Shown: positions 586 through 14,397 of the stretch, in pieces
How the letters are laid out: each line of letters starts with the position of its first letter
Position numbering within the stretch: position 1 is the first letter of the stretch
Virus record (IMG/VR): IMGVR_UViG_3300038369_000047
Span: 1 to 24,054 of that record
DNA length: 24,054 bases
Reading direction: 5' to 3' (one strand)
Source of the DNA: a virus
The notes under the pieces: generated by a model
Database searches by the model: none
Told to the model about the DNA's origin: nothing
Seen by the model: only the letters and a program-made list of their open reading frames with translations
Program-made: the position numbers and the translations under genes

Positions 586-840
586 TTACCAATAATTTAG
601 GGGGCATCGAGAAGCAGTAAACTTAACTTTGTTGACTAGGAAACACCCACACTCTCTGCATAAGTGACGCTGTTCATCAAATCTATTACACTCTCTACAT
701 ATATCTATCCTTGCTTTTTTTACTTCTTTTGGCACTAATAAAGTACCCTTACTTACGAAACCTTTTATAACATCATACGCTGTCTTAGAAAATATTTTCG
801 CCTTCTCTAAGTTTGATGGTTCATCATTCAGTTGTGACAT
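586..840 (-). CDS. Small Cys-rich zinc-ribbon protein
   Basis: An 84-residue protein. The N-terminal half is helical and lysine-rich. The C-terminal half carries two CREC pairs (CRECNRF, then CRECGCF) and a final CPLNYW. The two CxxC knuckles and the extra cysteines are what a zinc ribbon needs, so it probably binds zinc and acts through nucleic acid or protein contact. I recognise the C-terminal pattern as common in small marine-phage hypothetical proteins but can name no function. Its start overlaps the end of the upstream gene by 17 bases and its stop is 3 bases from the oxygenase start, which suggests one transcript. The ATG at 838-840 is the only good start. Confidence 0.7.
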   Translation of the reverse strand: MSQLNDEPSNLEKAKIFSKTAYDVIKGFVSKGTLLVPKEVKKARIDICRECNRFDEQRHLCRECGCFLVNKVKFTASRCPLNYW

Positions 841-1063
841 GATCGTGAACGTAACATGGAACTCCAGCAGGGTCTAACCATTTTGTATACTCAAAGTCTT
901 CAATAGATGTTTTCATCTGCATCCAATTATCACAAAGATACATGTCTTTGTATCCATTGTGATTGTTCCACTTTTGAATACGATAATCTGGATGTCCATT
1001 CTCTAGGAGATCAGGCATCTTTACATACCTGTATGGGTCATGCTGATACAAAACTTCAATCAT
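824..1063 (-). CDS. Hypothetical protein, 79 aa
   Basis: I do not recognise this gene. It is a 79-residue acidic protein rich in Tyr, Trp, His and Asp, with no membrane segment, signal peptide or metal-binding cluster beyond scattered His and Cys. It is the first gene after a near-consensus sigma70 promoter (1084-1112), with the ATG about 20 bases past the -10 box, so it is probably expressed early. Its 3' end overlaps the zinc-ribbon gene by 17 bases. It follows an antitoxin-like gene but lacks the features of a RelE/ParE, Doc or PIN toxin, so I do not call it a toxin. Confidence 0.6.
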   Translation of the reverse strand: MIEVLYQHDPYRYVKMPDLLENGHPDYRIQKWNNHNGYKDMYLCDNWMQMKTSIEDFEYTKWLDPAGVPCYVHDHVTTE

Positions 1064-1083: not shown

Positions 1084-1112
1084 ATTATACACAATCTTTG
1101 TTGGTAAGTCAA
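1084..1112 (-). promoter_or_regulatory. Sigma70-type (early) promoter, TTGACT-N17-TATAAT
   Basis: On the minus strand TTGACT (1107-1112) is followed after exactly 17 bases by TATAAT (1084-1089). Expected transcription start is near 1076-1078, about 15 bases before the ATG at 1063. The TGA inside the -35 box is the stop codon of the antitoxin gene (1109-1111). It would drive 824-1063 and the two genes after it using unmodified host RNA polymerase. Confidence 0.7.
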
Positions 1113-1309
1113 GCACCATCATCATGATTCCACATGTGTTCTATATCTTTTGCCTGTCCAGAATCAATAACTGGTTTAAGAATACCTTTGTCTGGAACTA
1201 AAGCTATCTGACCATCAGGAGTATCTAGTAAAAAAGTCTCACCAGCTTGTGCTCGATCAATTATCTCACTAAAATTTTCTTCAAGGTATTTGAGACTTAT
1301 AATTTTCAT
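1109..1309 (-). CDS. Phd/YefM-family antitoxin-like protein, no partner toxin
   Basis: A 66-residue protein matching the DNA-binding N-terminal domain of Phd/YefM antitoxins: a short strand (MKIISLKYLEENF), a helix ending in DRAQAGETF, then LLDTPDGQIALVPD, the usual 'G-E-x-hydrophobic / D-G-x-x-A-L-V-P' pattern. The C-terminal tail (HMWNHDDGA) is short and acidic and could be the toxin-contacting segment. No RelE, YoeB, Doc or PIN toxin lies next to it, so in this window it is an orphan. Its ATG overlaps the TGA of the peroxiredoxin-like gene (ATGA at 1306-1309), so the two are probably translationally coupled. Possible roles are neutralising a host toxin or acting as a small repressor; both are inference. 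Confidence 0.75.
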   Translation of the reverse strand: MKIISLKYLEENFSEIIDRAQAGETFLLDTPDGQIALVPDKGILKPVIDSGQAKDIEHMWNHDDGA

Positions 1310-1905
1310 CGAGGCATTGATAAATCTAAACTAGCATTATTCTCAGCATTAATACGATCTACTTGATTTCTCTTCTTTAAATGTTCTAGAATTTGATCTG
1401 GATGTGTCAATTCATATGGAACAATGTCACAATTATTTCTACCACTTTCATATCCAGCTGGAGTCTCTTCTTCAATGTATGTCATCTGGCAGTTGTCTTC
1501 AAGTAGGAGAGCAAAACGCCATGTTCTTTTTCCCATACCTCTGTTGTACATTTCAACAACGGTCATACCACCTGACATGCCACCCTGATGATCTATTCTA
1601 AGAGTTAAGGCACCATTACCATCTGGAAGATACTTACATTTTTTAATCTTCATTGACTTCCACCAAGCATCCATTACATATGGATCATTCATACAGACAA
1701 AGTATATTTCATCTACTTCAGTATCTTTTATGAATGTGTCATATGCAGCTTCATACTCTTTGACCATCTCAGTATCTGTTGGAGAGTAAGCAGCATTGAG
1801 TCCGATGAGAAGTACATCTTTACCCTCAAATAAACTAGTGGTGGATTTTCTAACAAGCTTCTTTCTACTCAAAAAGAAAAGTTCAGCATTAGGTAAAAAG
1901 TTCAT
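1306..1905 (-). CDS. Peroxiredoxin-5-like protein lacking the peroxidatic cysteine
   Basis: A 199-residue protein aligning by eye with atypical 2-Cys peroxiredoxins of the Prx5/AhpC-TSA type along most of its length. The family's active-site loop LPGAFTPTC appears as LNAAYSPTD (residues 36-44), so the peroxidatic Cys is Asp44 and the motif proline is Asn37. Downstream landmarks remain: VDEIYFVCMNDPYVMDAW (64-81), DGNGALTLRID (95-105) and GKRTWRFALL (from 125) with the conserved arginine at 127. Other cysteines (71, 90 and later) are not at the catalytic position. Peroxidase activity is therefore unlikely, and a binding, regulatory or decoy role is more probable. Transcription is expected from the promoter at 1946-1974, and the end overlaps the antitoxin gene by four bases. 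Family call firm, function unknown. Confidence 0.85.
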   Translation of the reverse strand: MNFLPNAELFFLSRKKLVRKSTTSLFEGKDVLLIGLNAAYSPTDTEMVKEYEAAYDTFIKDTEVDEIYFVCMNDPYVMDAWWKSMKIKKCKYLPDGNGALTLRIDHQGGMSGGMTVVEMYNRGMGKRTWRFALLLEDNCQMTYIEEETPAGYESGRNNCDIVPYELTHPDQILEHLKKRNQVDRINAENNASLDLSMPR

Positions 1906-1945: not shown

Positions 1946-1974
1946 ATCATACCTCAATTCTGGTTAACCGTCAA
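1946..1974 (-). promoter_or_regulatory. Sigma70-type (early) promoter, TTGACG-N17-TATGAT
   Basis: On the minus strand TTGACG (1969-1974) and TATGAT (1946-1951) are 17 bases apart. They lie in the gap before the peroxiredoxin-like ATG at 1905, leaving a leader of roughly 30-35 bases. As at 1084-1112, the TGA of the -35 box is the stop codon of the gene upstream (1971-1973). Further TATAAT-like strings follow at 1930-1946 and could add weaker starts. Confidence 0.65.
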
Positions 1975-2507
1975 CCTGACATATTAATTGTTAATGATAA
2001 TCTGGGTTCTTCATTAGAACATACTGAATGTTGTGTTCCAGCAGGGATAATTAGAACACCTTCTGGACTCACCTTTTCTACTTGTCCATTGATCTTCCAT
2101 AAACAAGTTCCGTATATTGGTTTGACTATAACATCATAATCGTGATGATGAGGATCAAAACTTGGTCTCTTAACTTTAGTACCAGCACTTAAATAAAAAT
2201 TAGCATTTGTTTCAGATCCTTTAAACTCAAACAACTTATCATCAAGAGCTCTGAGTTCTGCGGTAAGATCCATGACATTATTAAGTAAAGTAGTAAAACC
2301 TAAGTCATATAATCTCTTCCATTTATCATAAATTAAAAATTTTCTAGAGTCAAAGAATCCATTAGAAGTATTACCACACTGATTGATAACTTCCAATGCT
2401 ACCTCTGGCCATCTATACTTTATTTGAAGTAGATCTAAGATATCTTCCTCACTTAAATTTATCTCATGCTCACCTATAATTGATGCAGCAGTTTCAAGAT
2501 ACATCAA
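1971..2507 (-). CDS. JmjC/cupin-4-like protein, possible Fe(II)/2OG oxygenase
   Basis: A 178-residue protein. Residues 1-90 are helical and unassigned. The C-terminal part is a cupin: PHHHDYDVIVKPIYG (119-133) holds an HxD pair (His121/Asp123) and the strand to the conserved glycine, and GVLIIPAGTQHSV (150-162) is the second cupin motif with the distal His160. The layout (H-x-D near 'D-x-hydrophobic-hydrophobic-x-P-hydrophobic-Y-G', then 'P-A-G-x-x-H') is closer to JmjC/cupin-4 hydroxylases than to sugar-binding cupins. A protein or nucleic-acid oxygenase is plausible but the substrate is unknown. Its start overlaps the GIY-YIG gene by 14 bases. It begins MMYLE, so either Met could be used. 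Its stop codon forms part of the next promoter. Confidence 0.65.
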   Translation of the reverse strand: MMYLETAASIIGEHEINLSEEDILDLLQIKYRWPEVALEVINQCGNTSNGFFDSRKFLIYDKWKRLYDLGFTTLLNNVMDLTAELRALDDKLFEFKGSETNANFYLSAGTKVKRPSFDPHHHDYDVIVKPIYGTCLWKINGQVEKVSPEGVLIIPAGTQHSVCSNEEPRLSLTINMSG

Positions 2508-4299: not shown

Positions 4300-7221
4300 C
4301 TATTCTCCGCCGCCGTTTCCTCCACCATTTCCACCGTTGCCGTTACCACCATTACCGTTCCCATTGCCACCATTACCGTTCCCATTGCCATTAGAGCCGC
4401 CTTTTTTACCATTAGATTCATCTTTTTCATTTTCAATTGGTTTTAACATTCCACCATAACCTATCTTCATTCCTTTTGGAATATCTTTACATTTTTTTGA
4501 TTGATAACAATAATATTCACCTTTGCCACATGTCTTATTCATGTGACCTTCATCTATGAAACGAAGAATAGTTAGGTCTACATCATCCTTTACATATGAT
4601 AACCTCCTAGCCTTAGCTGCGGCATCAGCTGGGCCTCCAAGTGGTTGTTTTAATATCGAACCTTTCCTCTTCAAAGATTTTATCATACCAGAAACTTTCT
4701 TTGTGCCTTTTTTACCTGTCTTAGCATGTATACTTTTTTGTCTAGCTCCACTTCCTAAAACTTGAGGCCCTCTCTCCATGATCATTTCACCAGTCTCAGG
4801 TTCAAAGGAGCAGTTCCACTTACGAAGTGACTTATTGATCCTTGAATCTGGATCTCTTGCAGTCTTAGCTGAAGTGAGTTTCTTTTTCATACCTCTCATT
4901 CTTCTACAGAATGATAATCTTCTCTTAGCTGACTTAGATCCTTTCTTCAACTTAGATGGTTTGGTTGTAACCGCAGTCTTAAGTTTTGAGCCTGGGTTTG
5001 CAGCACGATATGATGCAACACCTTTTGCATTTAGACCACCTGACTCACTCTTCCCTGCCTTTCTCTGCCATGCTGGACTCTTAGCCTCACCCATCAGAGT
5101 GTTAGGTGTCTTATCATCTTTTGGATTTTTATCTACATTCTTCTTGAGTGCAGAACTGCCATCTTTCTTTATTGGATCACCGTATTCATCTCTTCCATAT
5201 TGTTTTCCAACTTTACCCATAGAAAACTTTCTACCAACTCTTGCTCCTGCCTCACTAATAGTTTCTTCTTTCACCCTTCTCATTATTTTATCTTTAGCCA
5301 TCTCAATACCCCTCTCTCTACTATCCATCTTTAAACGAGCTTTAACTTCTTTTTTTCTACTAGTCGTTTTGTTAGCCTTGTCTAACTGTTTGCTCGCTGA
5401 ATCACTGGCTTTATCAATATAATTAAGCATGGTTCTTGTTTTTAATTCATTAATATTCTCTTCACTCACTTTCTTTTTCTTTCTAGGACTATCAGTTTTA
5501 ACGTATGTTGGTTTAGCTGCACCTGTCTTAGACTGTTGATTTGGATCTGCCTTTTTCTTTCTTCTCTGAGCAGAGAGTCTCTCCGCCTTTGTCATTGACG
5601 CTCTCTTAGATGATGATACACACTTAGGAGTACCCTCACCTGGCTTGTCACTAGCACAAGTGCCACCTGTGACAACATTTACCCAACCGCCTTTACCATC
5701 TTTAGACTTAGATCCTTTGAACCACTGGTGTAGATTACCCTCAGTTTGCATTTTCTTTCTCTTTTTTCTTTTAGAAAATCCCGCTGGGTTATTGACATTT
5801 CCCTTCGCAGCATTTTTACGAGCCAGACTATTAGCTCTTCTTCTTTGTCTTGGATCTGTTAAATCTAATCCCTTTTCTTTTGCAATCTTGTTCATATGGT
5901 AGTTACCATCATACTCATATAGATTACCCTCCATTGTAGGAGTTCTTTGTGCATCAGGTTTGTCAAAAGATTTTTGAAGTGTATCTTTCTTTGAAATTAT
6001 TTCTTTTCTTTTTTTAGAAGCTGCATTGGTAAATTTCTCTACTTGTTTTTGTCTTTTATTAAATTCAGGCGTTCCTCTAGCTGCTTCACGTTTTGACATT
6101 GCTTGTCTTGCAGCCTGATTTAGAGTGTCTTGACTAAGTTCATTTATAGGCTCGTACTCTTCTTTACGAGTTCCCTTTTTCTTGACACAGTTTGGATATC
6201 TCTTACCAAACATAGTCTTCATACCTTTCTTTTCATATCCTTTCCAACACTTCTCCGAAATTACTGGTTCATAATCTTCTTTCTTAAGTTTTCTTTTCTT
6301 AGCAACCTTCAAATCCTGTAATCTTTCTCTCTTTGATATTGCAATAGCAGCCTGTTGTGCTGCATTGACTGCCTCATCAACATCTAAGAAATTAACATAT
6401 TTGTTATGTTCTTTCTGTTTAATCTTTTTCTTAGCAATAGCGCCTGCGTCTCTTTTAAATCTTTGTTTTGCTGTGATGGATTCTTGATGAACTTCACCTC
6501 TAGCAATACCCTTCAATAATTTTTGTGTCTCATTTTTTTGTGTTGGTGTTTTATATTTCTTAGAATACTTGTCCACTAATTCACCTTGTTTCTTTGCTTC
6601 GCCAGCTCTAGCTGTTATCATATCAGAGCTTGGTTTCTGTCTATCATATAACTTCTTCTCCATATCACTAATCTTTCTTTTCTCAGAGACCATTGCTTTC
6701 TCTAGATCATCTGCCTGTTTAGCATGTGTCTTAGAACCTTTTCTGAGTTTTCCTACTAATTTTTTTACAAATGGTTTATCATCTTTGTTTAACTCCTCCT
6801 TGACATCTCCTGTAATCTTAGGTGTCTTAGGAATCATGACAGGTTCCATCATCTTCTTCTTAGCCCAGTCATCTGGAACCATGAGATGTTTGGTCTTAAA
6901 TGCCATGTGTAATGTTGTAGTATCAATATCATTCTCTTTTGCAATTTTGCACATCAATTTGTCTACCTCATCATAGGTAGGATAGTCCATCTTAACTAGA
7001 CCATCTTCTAGTTCTTTGACGTAATCTTCGTTGAATGATTCTTTAGTCACTTTTTTCTCAGGTAAACCTTTATGTTTTGTTTTAGCGAATTTTTTTACGC
7101 TGGAACGCTTGGTGGTGGCAGCAACTTTGGCAACCTCAGGCGAGGGATTTTCCATTTCCCCTTTCTGAGTCGCTCTAACCATCCCGAAGAATCTTTGTTG
7201 CTTTTTAGATAATGCTGGCAT
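4300..7221 (-). CDS. Large modular lysine-rich protein (DUF3008-type N-terminus), possible capsid-interior polyprotein
   Basis: A 973-residue, extremely Lys/Arg-rich protein made of dissimilar modules. Residues 1-58 match the DUF3008 type (MPALSKKQQRFFGMVRATQK start, FAKTKHKGLPEKK end). A Cys module SEKCWKGYEKKGMKTMFGKR lies at 322-341. 'INEL' helical modules begin at 359 and 590. A module with KGGWVNVVTGGTC and SSSKRASMTKAERLSAQRRK lies at about 496-577 (DUF5872-like by memory). Residues 716-804 contain GGLNAKGVASYRAANPGSK and the DPDSRINKSLRKWNC end (DUF6321-like by memory). Another Cys module lies at 894-930 (KTCGKGEYYCYQSKKCKDIP). The tail from 941 is only Gly and Asn. Motifs ISE, INE, INE, ISE and MGE (ending at 323, 361, 592, 657, 712) stand between modules and resemble T4 prohead-protease sites. 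Function unknown; a DNA-binding protein packaged with the genome is my inference. It starts one base after the 114-residue gene. Confidence 0.8.
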   Translation of the reverse strand: MPALSKKQQRFFGMVRATQKGEMENPSPEVAKVAATTKRSSVKKFAKTKHKGLPEKKVTKESFNEDYVKELEDGLVKMDYPTYDEVDKLMCKIAKENDIDTTTLHMAFKTKHLMVPDDWAKKKMMEPVMIPKTPKITGDVKEELNKDDKPFVKKLVGKLRKGSKTHAKQADDLEKAMVSEKRKISDMEKKLYDRQKPSSDMITARAGEAKKQGELVDKYSKKYKTPTQKNETQKLLKGIARGEVHQESITAKQRFKRDAGAIAKKKIKQKEHNKYVNFLDVDEAVNAAQQAAIAISKRERLQDLKVAKKRKLKKEDYEPVISEKCWKGYEKKGMKTMFGKRYPNCVKKKGTRKEEYEPINELSQDTLNQAARQAMSKREAARGTPEFNKRQKQVEKFTNAASKKRKEIISKKDTLQKSFDKPDAQRTPTMEGNLYEYDGNYHMNKIAKEKGLDLTDPRQRRRANSLARKNAAKGNVNNPAGFSKRKKRKKMQTEGNLHQWFKGSKSKDGKGGWVNVVTGGTCASDKPGEGTPKCVSSSKRASMTKAERLSAQRRKKKADPNQQSKTGAAKPTYVKTDSPRKKKKVSEENINELKTRTMLNYIDKASDSASKQLDKANKTTSRKKEVKARLKMDSRERGIEMAKDKIMRRVKEETISEAGARVGRKFSMGKVGKQYGRDEYGDPIKKDGSSALKKNVDKNPKDDKTPNTLMGEAKSPAWQRKAGKSESGGLNAKGVASYRAANPGSKLKTAVTTKPSKLKKGSKSAKRRLSFCRRMRGMKKKLTSAKTARDPDSRINKSLRKWNCSFEPETGEMIMERGPQVLGSGARQKSIHAKTGKKGTKKVSGMIKSLKRKGSILKQPLGGPADAAAKARRLSYVKDDVDLTILRFIDEGHMNKTCGKGEYYCYQSKKCKDIPKGMKIGYGGMLKPIENEKDESNGKKGGSNGNGNGNGGNGNGNGGNGNGGNGGGNGGGE
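4306..4392. repeat. Gly/Asn-coding low-complexity tandem repeat
   Basis: The last 30 codons of the large basic gene are nearly all Gly and Asn. Within it a 19-base unit (beginning ATTACCGTTCCC on the plus strand) occurs twice, at 4351-4369 and 4372-4390, a 21-base period, with shorter imperfect copies towards 4306. Such tracts expand and contract by slippage, so tail length probably varies among relatives. Confidence 0.75.
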
Positions 7222-8455: not shown

Positions 8456-11431
8456 ATGGCTCGTCAGGGAATATTTACTGGATTCACACCGAATGATGGT
8501 CTGGGAGATTCCCTTGCCTTGGGTGCAACCAAAGTAAACCAAAACTTTACGGAGATATATACTACTTTTGGTGACGGAACAAACCTAAGTGCCAATGCAG
8601 GGAGTGCTGGTACTTGGACGAAGGCAGGGAACACAGGGATATACACAAGTAAGAACGTAGGTATTGGAACAACTTTACCTACCGCAGCTCTATATGTGTC
8701 TGGTAACGCACAGTTAACAGGTATTACAACTGGAACATTCGTTGGAGATGGTTCTGGTCTAACTGGTGTGACTGCAACAGGTTCTGGTGTTGTCATTAAG
8801 GATAGTGGTGTTCTAGTTGGTGTTGCACAAAGTCTTAACTTCGATAGAAACTTAGATGTTACACAAGCATTTGGTGGTAACGTCACAATTGGTGCTGCTG
8901 ACACAGTAGGATTTGCATTTACCTCTGGATTCTCTACTGCATCTGGGTATGCAAACGTTGCTGGAGTATCTACCACATCAGGAACAGCTGGGTTCGCTGA
9001 CACGGCAACCTTGGCCATCAGTGCAAACTTCGCCACAGTCGCTGGTATTGTAACATACGCATCGGCATCTGGAGTTGCAACCAACTCAGGAGTAGCTGAG
9101 TATGCGAAGGTAGCTGGTATTGCATCATACGTTGCCAATGCAGGGTTCTCAACCATGGCAGGGTATGCACATACAGCAGGCATCGCCTCAGTCGCACAGA
9201 ATTTAACAGGAACTCCATCAATAGTTGTTGATAATGTCAACGGTACTGGAATTGTAACCTTCCCAGGCCAAGGTAGTAAGATGCGTTTTGATTTTGACGC
9301 AACAGGTGACTTACCTACTGCTACGAGTTGGAGAGGTATGTTTGCTTATGCAAATAATACAAAGAGTGCATATGTTTCTAGCGGAACCACAATGGGTGGT
9401 TACAACGGTTGGAGACAGATACTTCACCAAGACTTATACGGTAACTATCAAACTGTTGGTGTCATAACTGCTTCTAGATTCTCTGGTGATGGTTCTACTC
9501 TTACTAACCTACCATCAACAGATAGTATTTGGAGATCAAACTCCACTGGTATTCACACATTAACCAATGTTGGTATCGGTACTACTAACAATGAGGGTTA
9601 TAAACTCAAGGTTGTAGGTAATTACAGACTTGCTGGTCGTTTAGACGGAACTGCAACAGGTAATATTCTACCACACTTATGGACTAATTACAGTGATCTA
9701 CCAGCTGCTGGAATCAATCATGGTCAGTTTGCTCATGTTCATGAATTTAACAAGGGATATTTTGCTCATAATATAGGAACCACAATCAATGTTACAGTCA
9801 GCACCGATACTGTGGGAGGTCAAGCAACAGGTGTATTCTACTTCAATGGTGTAGAAAGACCTGGCAATTTCCCCATATCAAGAGGTGCTACTTACATCTT
9901 AAACCAAGATGATGCAAGTAACGTAAACTACAACAGTCAAGAACATCCATTGATGTTCAGTACAACTCTAGATGGAGAATTGGCTGGTGGTGATCATTAT
10001 ATGATGGGTGTCACCTATAAGTTAGATGGTGTTCAAGTCACCATGGCTGGATATGTTAGTGGATTTAGTAGTGCTACCACTCGTAGAATAGAGTGGACTC
10101 CAGTAGCAGCTGCACCTAACACACTATACTACTGGTGTCATTACCATACAGGACAAGGAAATACTTTATCCATCAACAATGAAGGTTGGATGGAACTTGT
10201 TAATAAAAATACTGACAGGACTGTAGGAACAGGAACTGAGAACTATAGAGTTGGTGTTGTGACTGCAACTACATTTTATGGTGATGGATCTAATTTAACA
10301 GGAACTGGATCTGGGTATGCAACCACAGCTGGAATCGCAACTCTAGCAAGAGGTTTAACTGGATCACCAAACATCACGGTTGGTGTAGTAACTGCAACTA
10401 GTTTTATTGGTGATGGTTCTGGAATAACTGGTGTTACTGCTTCTGGTACTGGTATCATAATCAGAGACGACGGCACACTTGTAGGAACCATTGGTACTAT
10501 TAACTTTGGTACAAATCTATCCGTATCTGCTGCATCTGCTGGTGTTGTAACAGTCACCGCATCAGGTGGTGGCGGAGGCGGTGGTATCTCTGGTATGGTA
10601 TACCAAGAGGAAGGATCTACCGTTGGTACTGCACAGACAGTTAACTTTATTGGTGCTGCATGTACAGTAAGTCATAGTGGTGGAGTTGCAACTGTCAACT
10701 TGGCAGGAGCAGTACCATTTACAGGCCCTGCAGCAAACATAACTGCACTTGATATCACACAATATGAGACTGCATACGCATGGGGCAATCATGCGAGTGC
10801 TGGATATCTAACAGGAATAGGTGGTCAAAACTTAGGTAACTTATCTAATGTTTCTAGTGCATCTCCAAGTACAAGTGATGTATTGACATGGAGTGGATCA
10901 CAGTGGGCACCAGCCGCACCTACAGGTGGTGGCGGTGGTGGTATCAATGGTATCACTATCAAGGAAGAAGGAACTAACGTTGGAACTGCAACCAGTATCA
11001 CATCCATCAACTTTGTTGGAACTGGAGTCACTGCAACTGCAACTGGTCAGGATGCAACTATTACTATCACTGCCGTAAGTGGTGGTGGAGGTGGTGGTGT
11101 ATCGACCACTGGATTCGGAACATACACTGCATCTGCTGGTGTAGAAACACAAATTGATTCATTCTCTGCTGCTAGTTACTCTGGTGCTGAGTACACGTTT
11201 ATGATTGGTCTAGGAACATATAGACAATCACAGAAAGTTCTCGTCATGCATGATGGAACTACAGCGTTCTCCCAAGAATATGGCATCATGTTCTCCCCAG
11301 AACAACTACAACAGGTATCCATTGCTGCAACAATAAGTGGTGGTAACGTTTTAGTTAAGTTCACACCAGAGGCAGGGATCTCTGGATTATCCACATATAG
11401 ATACGTCAAGACTCTGATTCAAGGCATATGA
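8456..11431 (+). CDS. Long fibre-like virion protein with cupredoxin-like insertion, 991 aa
   Basis: A repeat-rich beta protein, probably a trimeric tail or capsid fibre. Residues 1-45 (ending KVNQNFTEIYTTFGDGTNL) are an N-terminal domain shared with the minus-strand fibre and likely the attachment part. Then come 'GDGSGLTG' repeats (97, 652 and others), many 'YAxxAGIA' repeats (150-235), and a domain HGQFAHVHEFNKGYFAH (422-438) that resumes as GWMELVNKN at 577. Between them, about 440-575, lies a cupredoxin-like insert with His497, Cys561, His564 and Gln567. ITQYETAYAWGNHASAGYL is a motif seen in many phage fibres. Three poly-Gly linkers (704-710, 824-829, 876-881) separate beta modules. The C-terminal 110 residues look like a receptor-binding knob. 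It ends in an ATGA overlap with the protease gene. Confidence 0.85.
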   Translation: MARQGIFTGFTPNDGLGDSLALGATKVNQNFTEIYTTFGDGTNLSANAGSAGTWTKAGNTGIYTSKNVGIGTTLPTAALYVSGNAQLTGITTGTFVGDGSGLTGVTATGSGVVIKDSGVLVGVAQSLNFDRNLDVTQAFGGNVTIGAADTVGFAFTSGFSTASGYANVAGVSTTSGTAGFADTATLAISANFATVAGIVTYASASGVATNSGVAEYAKVAGIASYVANAGFSTMAGYAHTAGIASVAQNLTGTPSIVVDNVNGTGIVTFPGQGSKMRFDFDATGDLPTATSWRGMFAYANNTKSAYVSSGTTMGGYNGWRQILHQDLYGNYQTVGVITASRFSGDGSTLTNLPSTDSIWRSNSTGIHTLTNVGIGTTNNEGYKLKVVGNYRLAGRLDGTATGNILPHLWTNYSDLPAAGINHGQFAHVHEFNKGYFAHNIGTTINVTVSTDTVGGQATGVFYFNGVERPGNFPISRGATYILNQDDASNVNYNSQEHPLMFSTTLDGELAGGDHYMMGVTYKLDGVQVTMAGYVSGFSSATTRRIEWTPVAAAPNTLYYWCHYHTGQGNTLSINNEGWMELVNKNTDRTVGTGTENYRVGVVTATTFYGDGSNLTGTGSGYATTAGIATLARGLTGSPNITVGVVTATSFIGDGSGITGVTASGTGIIIRDDGTLVGTIGTINFGTNLSVSAASAGVVTVTASGGGGGGGISGMVYQEEGSTVGTAQTVNFIGAACTVSHSGGVATVNLAGAVPFTGPAANITALDITQYETAYAWGNHASAGYLTGIGGQNLGNLSNVSSASPSTSDVLTWSGSQWAPAAPTGGGGGGINGITIKEEGTNVGTATSITSINFVGTGVTATATGQDATITITAVSGGGGGGVSTTGFGTYTASAGVETQIDSFSAASYSGAEYTFMIGLGTYRQSQKVLVMHDGTTAFSQEYGIMFSPEQLQQVSIAATISGGNVLVKFTPEAGISGLSTYRYVKTLIQGI

Positions 11432-13638
11432 TTCATACTAGTACGAACACTCTTGATAGGACAGGACTGGCTACCAAGCCGACTGGAGCTGATGATAAGA
11501 AAGCGTACTCTATCAAGTGTTATACCAAAGATGATTGGGTATTCATTCACGAAGAACTAGAGAAAGATGGTTCACTGGAAGATAATATTCCAGACCCATC
11601 TATAGTATGTCCTGACAAGAAGGAACATAGTGATACCAGAGCAACCTACATGTTGACTGATGCAGAGGCAGAAGATCTTAGAAAACACGAGAAAGTACAG
11701 TGGGTTTGTATTGACTATGACGCATATCCAGGCAACTATTCTCCAGATCCAAAAGATATTATTGCTGGTGTAAGGAAGTTTGGTAGATTTAATAAGACAG
11801 TATCCAACTACAGAGCATGGAATACTGCACCATCTAGACCTCCTACATCTCAGGCTGGTATAGGTGCATCAGATAAGAATAGAACTGGATATCAGATACT
11901 AAGACACACACAAAAAGAAAACCCTTGGGATGCAACAGCAACTGGAGTGACTGGAAATGATCATTTAATAATAGAAACTGAACCAAAACAATTAGGTGAC
12001 GGAACTGGCGTAGATGCAATCGTATCTGATGATGGTTTCTGGATTGCACACCCAGAATTTGTAACAACTGCCGATGATCCTGTAGGATGGTCAACAGGAA
12101 ACGCATTGACATGGAGTGGTATATCTACAACACCAGGCACATGTGGTGTTCTAGATGTAGTTCTTGATGGGCCATACTATATTGATCCAGACTGGTTCAA
12201 TGCAGATCCAGGCAATAGATTAATTCAACGTTGGGATGGTACAACAGTTCCAGTAGAATCTGTTGCAAGAGCATGGTGGTCTGATTCAAGTCAGAGATCA
12301 GTAGGATTCTCTACTATAGGAACTACAAGTGGTATCAGTGGTTCATATACAAGAGCTAATTGCAATGGCACTAATACTGCAAAACCACAAAATAATTCTG
12401 ATCACGGAACTCAATGTGCTGGTCAGGTATTTGGTAAGAACTATGGTTCTGCATACAACTGTAACAAATGGGTAATCAATGGCATCGGTGGATCTAACGC
12501 TGGAATCAATGGTAGTCAGTTCGATGTACAAAAACTATTTCACTTGTATAAACCTAACTGGGATAGACATTCTGCAATAACTGGGAAACAAAATGACGAC
12601 AAAAATCCCACAACGTCAAGTAATAGTTGGGGATATAGGTCTAGTAGTATTCATAGTGGTGGATATTATTGGTATAGACCATCTGCAATAGACGGAACTG
12701 TAACTGGTGTGTCATATGGCAGTGGTAGTGAACCAGCTTTCTTTGATCTACTAGGTGCATATGGTGATGGTAGTAGATGTAAAGGTGAGATGATAGACAG
12801 TTCCGTCACCGCTGCTGGTGATGAGTTAGCTGAAGCGGGAGTCATATTCATTGCTGCAGCTGGTAATAGTAATCAGACTCAAACAAGTCCTGGCGATCTT
12901 GATTTTAATAACTATTGGTCTACAACTTCCCAAGGTGATAGTGTTTCATTACAATCTGCAACTCATTTTGAATTTGGTTTACAGTGTTACAATACTATCA
13001 ACAGAAGAGGGTGGCCACAGTCATTAGGTAAAACCACATCTGGATTATCAACTGCTGGAACTGAGTATGCTTGCATTAATATTGGTGCATTAGATGACCA
13101 ATATGTGAGTAATGGACTAGGTGGTAACAGCACAGACTACAAAGAAAAGAAAGTCACCTATAGTGATATGGGAACAGGTATTGATTGTTATGGTGCTGCT
13201 GATGATACACTCACAGCTGATGGTAGAGATTCAAACCTAACATATCCTCATCCAGAAGACTATACTGGACTAGGACTTGTCCCTTATGATGTTGACTTTA
13301 GTGGCACTAGTTCTGCATGTCCTACATGTGCTGGGTGGATTACCACCAAACTACAATATAATAGAGGTTGGACTTGGAGAGATGTCAAAAGTTGGTTAAA
13401 GAATAACTGTGGTGCTCAAGATCCTGACAGATTTTACTACGGTGATGATATAACAACCTTCACTGCTGAAGAAAATGCTTGGATAGATATGTATTCTCAT
13501 ATGGCATACGGTCAAGGCCCTGTTGTAATATGGGATGCTCCTACTGGTTCACCTTCTGAACCTAAAAAACCTGAGATCAAAATCGTAAACTCACGCAATC
13601 TTAAGATTAGTGGTGGAGTTGAGATAAAGTTCTCTTAA
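11428..13638 (+). CDS. Subtilisin-family (S8) serine protease, virion-associated
   Basis: A 736-residue protein with a complete subtilase catalytic set. Asp201 lies in IVSDDGFWIAHPEF, His326 in DHGTQCAGQVFG, the oxyanion Asn480 in FIAAAGNSN, and the nucleophile Ser628 in FSGTSSACPTCAGW. The order D-H-N-S and the spacing are those of family S8. Residues 1-100 (with YMLTDAEAEDLRKHEKVQWV) look like an inhibitor-type prodomain. The catalytic domain has long insertions and many cysteines. No signal peptide is seen. The C-terminal 40 residues after the domain (PTGSPSEPKKPEIKIVNSRN) form a linker and a short beta end. It is cotranslated with the fibre gene (ATGA) and under late control, so it probably sits in the virion and processes fibres, packaged proteins or host surface protein. 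Target unknown. Confidence 0.9.
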   Translation: MIHTSTNTLDRTGLATKPTGADDKKAYSIKCYTKDDWVFIHEELEKDGSLEDNIPDPSIVCPDKKEHSDTRATYMLTDAEAEDLRKHEKVQWVCIDYDAYPGNYSPDPKDIIAGVRKFGRFNKTVSNYRAWNTAPSRPPTSQAGIGASDKNRTGYQILRHTQKENPWDATATGVTGNDHLIIETEPKQLGDGTGVDAIVSDDGFWIAHPEFVTTADDPVGWSTGNALTWSGISTTPGTCGVLDVVLDGPYYIDPDWFNADPGNRLIQRWDGTTVPVESVARAWWSDSSQRSVGFSTIGTTSGISGSYTRANCNGTNTAKPQNNSDHGTQCAGQVFGKNYGSAYNCNKWVINGIGGSNAGINGSQFDVQKLFHLYKPNWDRHSAITGKQNDDKNPTTSSNSWGYRSSSIHSGGYYWYRPSAIDGTVTGVSYGSGSEPAFFDLLGAYGDGSRCKGEMIDSSVTAAGDELAEAGVIFIAAAGNSNQTQTSPGDLDFNNYWSTTSQGDSVSLQSATHFEFGLQCYNTINRRGWPQSLGKTTSGLSTAGTEYACINIGALDDQYVSNGLGGNSTDYKEKKVTYSDMGTGIDCYGAADDTLTADGRDSNLTYPHPEDYTGLGLVPYDVDFSGTSSACPTCAGWITTKLQYNRGWTWRDVKSWLKNNCGAQDPDRFYYGDDITTFTAEENAWIDMYSHMAYGQGPVVIWDAPTGSPSEPKKPEIKIVNSRNLKISGGVEIKFS

Positions 13639-13662: not shown

Positions 13663-14397
13663 ATGGCAGAAAAATCGTTTGGTGTAAAGGATCTTAATAT
13701 AGTTGGAGCAACTGGCGACCCAACTATAGAGAGTAATGGCGATCTGAATTTAAAGGCTGGTCAAGTTGCAATCCAGACTAACACCACAGTCACAGGAGTT
13801 GTTACTGCAACAGCATTTGTAGGTGATGGCGCTGGATTAACTAACCTTCCAGGCGGAGGTAGTTATGGTAACTCTGATGTTGACACACACCTCAATACTG
13901 GTACTGCTTCCACTGGAGAAATTCTAAGTTGGAATGGAAGCGACTATGATTGGGTTGCTGATCAAACTGGAGGTGCTGCAGCAAACAGCACTTTTGATAC
14001 CGTAGATGTTGTAGGTATTGTAACTGCTGGTAGTTTTGTTACTGATCTTATTACCGCAAATGGAACTGGTAGAGGATTCTGTACCAGATATTATATCACT
14101 GCAAACGGTTCTTCTTCATACAGTTTTGCAGGGCCTGGACAAAGAAATACTGTAGGAAATCCTACTCTTTACTTAATGAGAGGTTTCACATATATGTTTG
14201 AGAACTCTACTGGTGGTTCCCATCCATTCCGTATTCAATTTACAGGAACAACTACAGGTGTAGGAACATATGTCAGCGGAGCACAGAACGGAGTACAGAT
14301 ATTTACAATTCCACATGATGCACCAGGCAGTTATGAATATCAATGCACTGTGCCATCACACGCCAGTATGAAAGGAAGTCTCATTATCCCTAGTTAA
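13663..14397 (+). CDS. Fibre-like protein with C-terminal cupredoxin domain (complete type-1 Cu ligand set)
   Basis: A 244-residue protein. Residues 1-60 contain beta repeats of the fibre type (VVTATAFVGDGAGLTNLPGG). Residues 62-140 include DVDTHLNTGTASTGEILSW, a module common in marine-phage structural proteins. The C-terminal 110 residues form a cupredoxin-like domain: a strand with LYLMRGFTYMFEN, then SHPFRIQF with His187, and the end strand YEYQCTVPSHASMKGSLII with Cys228, His233 and Met236. These four residues are the mononuclear (blue) type-1 copper ligands in the usual order, with C-x4-H-x2-M spacing. No signal peptide is present, so it is probably a virion protein. Whether it binds copper or only uses the fold for adhesion is not shown by sequence. 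It follows a late-promoter core and lies 4 bases before the next gene. Confidence 0.75.
   Translation: MAEKSFGVKDLNIVGATGDPTIESNGDLNLKAGQVAIQTNTTVTGVVTATAFVGDGAGLTNLPGGGSYGNSDVDTHLNTGTASTGEILSWNGSDYDWVADQTGGAAANSTFDTVDVVGIVTAGSFVTDLITANGTGRGFCTRYYITANGSSSYSFAGPGQRNTVGNPTLYLMRGFTYMFENSTGGSHPFRIQFTGTTTGVGTYVSGAQNGVQIFTIPHDAPGSYEYQCTVPSHASMKGSLIIPS

Follow-up and report, generated by a model that had tools for sequence, protein, structure and literature searches.

A conserved branch of phage Prx5-type peroxiredoxins bears aspartate at the position of the peroxidatic cysteine

The stretch of viral DNA analysed here (24,054 nucleotides, in the following referred to as the window) encodes a Prx5-type peroxiredoxin in which an aspartate, Asp44, occupies the place of the peroxidatic cysteine. 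This aspartate recurs in many related phage proteins and the proteins that carry it are subject to purifying selection. As judged from their sequences, proteins of this form are probably not thiol peroxidases, because the peroxide-attacking thiol is gone and this thiol is essential to peroxiredoxin chemistry; the conclusion is firmest for members that are free of cysteine altogether. We consider it possible, with a probability of about 0.45, that they represent selected, non-peroxidatic peroxiredoxins of a binding or chaperone type, in which Asp44 mimics a charged or sulfinic cysteine opposite the active-site arginine.

Results

The open reading frame at 1306..1905, which a first, sequence-only reading had already assigned to the Prx5-type peroxiredoxins, matches Pfam Redoxin (4.3e-10, above the curated cut-off), PHROG 2281 (4.9e-48) and the 1-Cys peroxiredoxin from Plasmodium falciparum (PDB 1xiy, E 1.6e-24), and the assignment is thereby borne out. 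NCBIfam and PADLOC yielded no matches to this protein or to the Phd-like protein encoded next to it. An AlphaFold2 model of the window protein (pLDDT 88.9) aligns with 4d73/1xiy at Z values of about 25 over 164 residues (25.6 for 4d73), and models with pLDDT values around 89, including those of the most divergent Asp-bearing members, match Prx5 structures at Z 24-26. By homology and by its predicted thioredoxin-like Prx5 fold, the protein belongs to the Prx5/type II peroxiredoxins. Among the hallmarks of the enzymes it retains the catalytic arginine (R127 in PRDX5, R130 in the window). It lacks the peroxidatic cysteine expected in the first helical turn of alpha-2 (Asp44) as well as the proline and threonine of the PxxxT(P)xxC motif (N37 and S41). 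The gene and the two codons of major interest are:

1306..1905, minus strand: Prx5-type pseudo-peroxiredoxin gene, 199 amino acids, ATG start, Asp44 at the peroxidatic position
1774..1776, minus strand: codon of Asp44 (GAT) at the position of the peroxidatic cysteine, computed from the end of the reading frame; GAT also in the identical locus L001
1516..1518, minus strand: codon of Arg130, equivalent of the catalytic arginine of Prx5, computed from the end of the reading frame; invariant in all Asp forms

The window very probably stems from a T4-like cyanophage, since its RNR beta subunit shares 84% identity with the counterpart in Synechococcus phage S-SSM7 and the local gene order is common to both. 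From this kinship we infer a Synechococcus-type cyanobacterium as the host. When genome contigs were examined for a cellular origin of the subfamily, only two weak peroxiredoxin matches (31-34%) were obtained.

The loop LNAAYSPTD of the window protein stands in place of the canonical LPGAFTPTC, and the spacing from residue 38 (G/A) to residue 44 equals that between glycine and cysteine in PGAFTPTC. In HMMER profile alignments the cysteine of 1xiy falls into a one-residue insertion beside Asp44; as the gap adjoins the aspartate, a deletion of the cysteine combined with a change of the following serine would also account for this alignment. The S-SSM7 clade (36 sequences), however, has the same shortened loop with cysteine exactly at column 44 (GAFTPPC-TEM versus AAYSPTD-TEM in the window), so that Asp44 is the positional replacement of the cysteine. 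Spacing and S-SSM7 clade together confirm the loss of motif proline and peroxidatic cysteine that had been read from the loop alone. Helix alpha-2 begins at P42 in the model of the window protein and at P43 in that of L110, two residues ahead of the aspartate, which places the latter in the first turn of the predicted helix in both. The S-SSM7-type Cys forms (L064-L101) exhibit a peculiarity of their own: a second cysteine replaces the motif proline (VCGAFTPPC), resulting in an unusual pair of cysteines seven residues apart (residues 37 and 44). Via the R-x-x-R segment, R130 of the window protein corresponds to the catalytic Arg127 of PRDX5. The earlier statement that Arg127 is kept is correct for the catalytic residue itself, but the number is that of human PRDX5, and R127 of the window protein is a neighbouring conserved arginine.

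Scans of viral contigs with peptide patterns, together with phage records, revealed aspartate at column 44 in 53 contigs encoding 45 distinct proteins, while 68 rows of the same collection have cysteine; no third residue occurs at this column in either set. The Asp44 of the window is therefore not confined to one sequence; such a confinement would have spoken against the original proposal. Four of the five scans employed patterns away from the active site; in the remaining one, a single pattern out of six (DTEMVKEY) includes the aspartate, and nearly all loci found by it were also recovered by active-site-free patterns. The Asp set comprises 24 groups below 85% identity, with a minimum pairwise identity of 30%. 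In 24 proteins less than 85% identical the entropy at Asp44 is zero, compared with 1.95-2.8 bits at residues 37, 41 and 43. The columns of the motif proline and threonine are variable among the Asp forms (residue 41 is T, S, N, I, M, L, C, V or D) and eight residue types occur at position 43. W129 and R130 are invariant throughout, as are E52 and D95; the second arginine (R127) is gone from L110, L111 and L113. Such strict conservation of Asp44 along with R130, W129, E52 and D95 in a pocket with a remodelled motif might also be expected if the fold had been turned to non-thiol chemistry, with Asp44 as a new catalytic or metal-binding residue. We regard this as decidedly improbable: the invariant residues include no additional conserved His/Cys cluster suggestive of a metal site, and Asp and Cys forms interconvert on the phylogenetic tree, a behaviour more in keeping with an isostere than with a new enzyme.

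A thiol peroxidase could persist if the peroxidatic cysteine had been relocated to Cys90 or Cys71, and within the clade of the window most Asp members do possess Cys90. This residue is, however, also present in the sisters with Cys44, both Cys90 and Cys71 are missing from many Asp members, and the alignment places Cys90 at a V/L position directly preceding a Prx5 strand and not in the active-site helix. The Asp members L080 and L086 contain no cysteine anywhere, which excludes relocation for these two proteins. For the group as a whole we regard it as very improbable; the sequence-only reading, which had named either cysteine at the peroxidatic site as the finding that would overturn it, withstands this comparison. 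Thiol-based redox sensing is likewise excluded for L080 and L086. A strict coupling of Asp44 and Cys90 held in the first 21 loci and broke down on the larger set.

Pairwise dN/dS values among the Asp forms amount to about 0.13-0.5. The Asp forms are under purifying selection, as revealed by the very comparison that had been suggested along with the original proposal. The loss of a catalytic residue might point to a decaying gene or to a sequencing or assembly error, but 45 distinct intact proteins from many metagenomes, dN/dS well below 1 and a conserved gene neighbourhood make this explanation practically negligible. Both GAT and GAC are in use as the codon of residue 44, and glutamate was not seen at this position in any Asp form although one base change would suffice. 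The recurrence of specifically aspartate, the invariant arginine opposite to it and the absence of glutamate argue for the need for a carboxylate of just this size.

The main rival explanation holds that the aspartate is a structural replacement only, fixed after loss of peroxidase function, which stabilises the N-terminus of helix alpha-2 as part of a capping box (S/T-x-x-D, residues 41-44) and leaves a scaffold without sulfinate mimicry. With the modelled helix starting at residue 42, position 41 is the N-cap and position 44 is N3, the classic spacing, and S or T is found at residue 41 in 12 of the 24 non-redundant Asp forms. On the other hand, several Asp proteins retain Asp44 although residue 41 has become I, L, M, V or C, which weakens the view that the aspartate serves the capping box alone. 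Furthermore, glutamate is favoured at N3 of capping boxes and yet never appears here, and R130 opposite remains invariant. We therefore consider a purely structural role unlikely.

In the main trees, calculated without the active-site columns, at least three changes between cysteine and aspartate are required, and a topology constrained to a single clade of all Asp rows is rejected (p-AU 0.00017). Trees from half-alignments gave two changes for the N-terminal and four for the C-terminal half, with L016 and L017 shifting place, so that recombination may contribute to the distribution of the two forms. The S-SSM7 Cys clade is possibly sister to the Asp group of the window (support 74/66). More than one switch is supported, and it may have occurred in either direction, as gain or reversal, given the disagreement of the half-alignments and the possible sister relationship just mentioned. 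A separate observation concerns L215, where positions 1399-2010 encode a peroxiredoxin with canonical Cys loop (PGAFTPTCSQRH) and a KSMKIKK motif, followed by a Phd-like open reading frame; this protein is a possible intermediate to the subfamily.

The Prx-like gene is surrounded by the following genes:

1109..1309, minus strand: Phd-like antitoxin gene, 66 amino acids, downstream, sharing 4 bp (ATGA) with the end of the Prx-like gene
824..1063, minus strand: gene of unknown function (phrog_481), downstream, syntenic
586..840, minus strand: small Cys-rich gene (phrog_13558, weak DUF6171), downstream, syntenic
1971..2507, minus strand: cupin-like gene (phrog_29157), upstream, syntenic in many loci

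The Phd-like protein matches phrog_375 (1.8e-10), while its Pfam match is weak and below the cut-off. Its gene follows the Prx-like gene in every Asp locus long enough to show it and in related Cys loci, mostly with overlapping or abutting stop and start codons (ATGA or TAATG), and is absent beside nearly all canonical hli/psbA-linked cyanophage peroxiredoxin genes examined, L215 being an exception. This arrangement could indicate a dedicated pair, either a toxin-antitoxin-like or a redox-regulated repressor module. Of a type II toxin-antitoxin system the adjacent Phd/YefM-like antitoxin gene is indeed present, but no cognate toxin of the ParE/RelE, Fic/Doc or YoeB families was detected in the window, S-SSM7 or Sf-FS3, and the Prx-like protein is devoid of any known toxin motif. 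Moreover, the Cys forms are accompanied by the Phd-like gene too, and in other cyanophages it follows glutaredoxin (S-PM2, with the order glutaredoxin-Phd-T4-GC 250) or transaldolase (S-H9-2). It is therefore probably not a dedicated partner of the Prx-like gene and may mark a cargo site, which would fit its distribution, and we hold a dedicated pair to be improbable. The description of an orphan antitoxin given by the sequence-only reading was accurate in so far as the gene adjoins and no such toxin was found; its significance is diminished by the occurrence of Phd-like genes behind unrelated auxiliary genes elsewhere. For a different gene cluster, Sullivan et al. (PMC3037559) put forward that a plasmid stability protein could assist in mobilising a cyanophage gene cassette. 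In S-PM2 (L217, 1189-1404) the Phd-like gene overlaps the gene for glutaredoxin NrdC, which occupies the slot of the window's Prx-like gene.

Some further genes of the window deserve mention. A Subtilase-family (S8) protease is encoded at 11428-13638 on the plus strand (PF00082, 3.8e-11; phrog_9158 'unknown'), flanked by tail-fibre/baseplate-connector genes. Two tail-fibre-like proteins (13663-14397 and 8456-11431, both plus strand) contain the stretches QCTVPSHASMKG and YYWCHYHTGQGN, which by eye resemble cupredoxin copper sites; the former protein has no Pfam match. The minus strand at 4300-7221 encodes a lysine-rich repetitive protein of 973 amino acids, parts of which match many PHROGs of unknown function.

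Discussion

The family to which the window protein belongs is already known and annotated as 'peroxyredoxin antioxidant'. In the literature searched, the coverage of which was partial, we found no report of a phage peroxiredoxin with aspartate at the peroxidatic site, and within this scope the conserved Asp-bearing branch is undescribed. That the fold has been kept for a use other than peroxide chemistry, as originally put forward from the window alone, is supported by the recurrence of the aspartate, the absence of a substitute cysteine and purifying selection.

Asp44, situated in the first turn of helix alpha-2 and predicted to face the conserved arginine, would provide a permanent negative charge resembling that of the thiolate or of a sulfinic, i.e. 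hyperoxidised, cysteine. The protein may thus be locked in a state that cysteine peroxiredoxins reach only after oxidation. Such a form would work stoichiometrically, independent of oxidant supply and reductant, most likely by binding and modulating host redox or photosynthesis proteins or, while infection proceeds, as a holdase. Most Prx5-type proteins form dimers, and the switch to a chaperone has been characterised best for decameric 2-Cys peroxiredoxins, so that the analogy to the latter may not carry over. In Arabidopsis, the C54D variant of a 2-Cys peroxiredoxin is the standard laboratory 'pseudohyperoxidized' form with an interactome of its own. Its binding partners included thylakoid and redox proteins, and it was a stronger inhibitor of carbonic anhydrase than the wild type (PMC7346168). 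A bolder proposal, which we consider rather doubtful, is that phages repeatedly convert a putative peroxidase into a constitutive signalling or chaperone form by exchanging cysteine for aspartate, thereby controlling photosynthetic redox enzymes of the host, and that lineages may switch back.

Cysteine-to-aspartate is the very mutation that biochemists use for freezing peroxiredoxins in the hyperoxidised state. A natural, recurrent and strictly conserved version in ocean viruses would allow functions of peroxiredoxins that are independent of peroxide chemistry to be tested, with closely related Cys and Asp sisters constituting a natural experiment. It also serves as a warning that many cyanophage genes annotated as 'antioxidant' or 'peroxiredoxin' probably do not encode peroxidases.

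Among known systems, the Cys-type Prx5 proteins of cyanophages (PHROG 2281, T4-GC 1143; SSSM7_244 of S-SSM7) share family, loop length and gene neighbourhood with the window. SSSM7_244 is 56% identical to the window protein and contains the same long insert after PDGNGA, but has cysteine at column 44 (TPPC-TEM) where the window has aspartate. The closest solved structure is that of the 1-Cys Prx5 AOP from P. falciparum (1xiy, 4d73; Z 25, 35% identity over 164 residues), which possesses the canonical PGAFTPTCST with the peroxidatic cysteine and lacks the phage insert. Human PRDX5 and plant type II peroxiredoxins have the fold and the conserved RxxR segment in common with the window protein (Z 21-22), whereas the peroxidatic cysteine, proline and threonine present in them are all replaced in the latter. 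The engineered pseudohyperoxidised C54D protein likewise carries aspartate for cysteine at the peroxidatic site; it is, however, a laboratory mutant of a decameric 2-Cys peroxiredoxin (PMC7346168), while the window encodes a natural phage Prx5.
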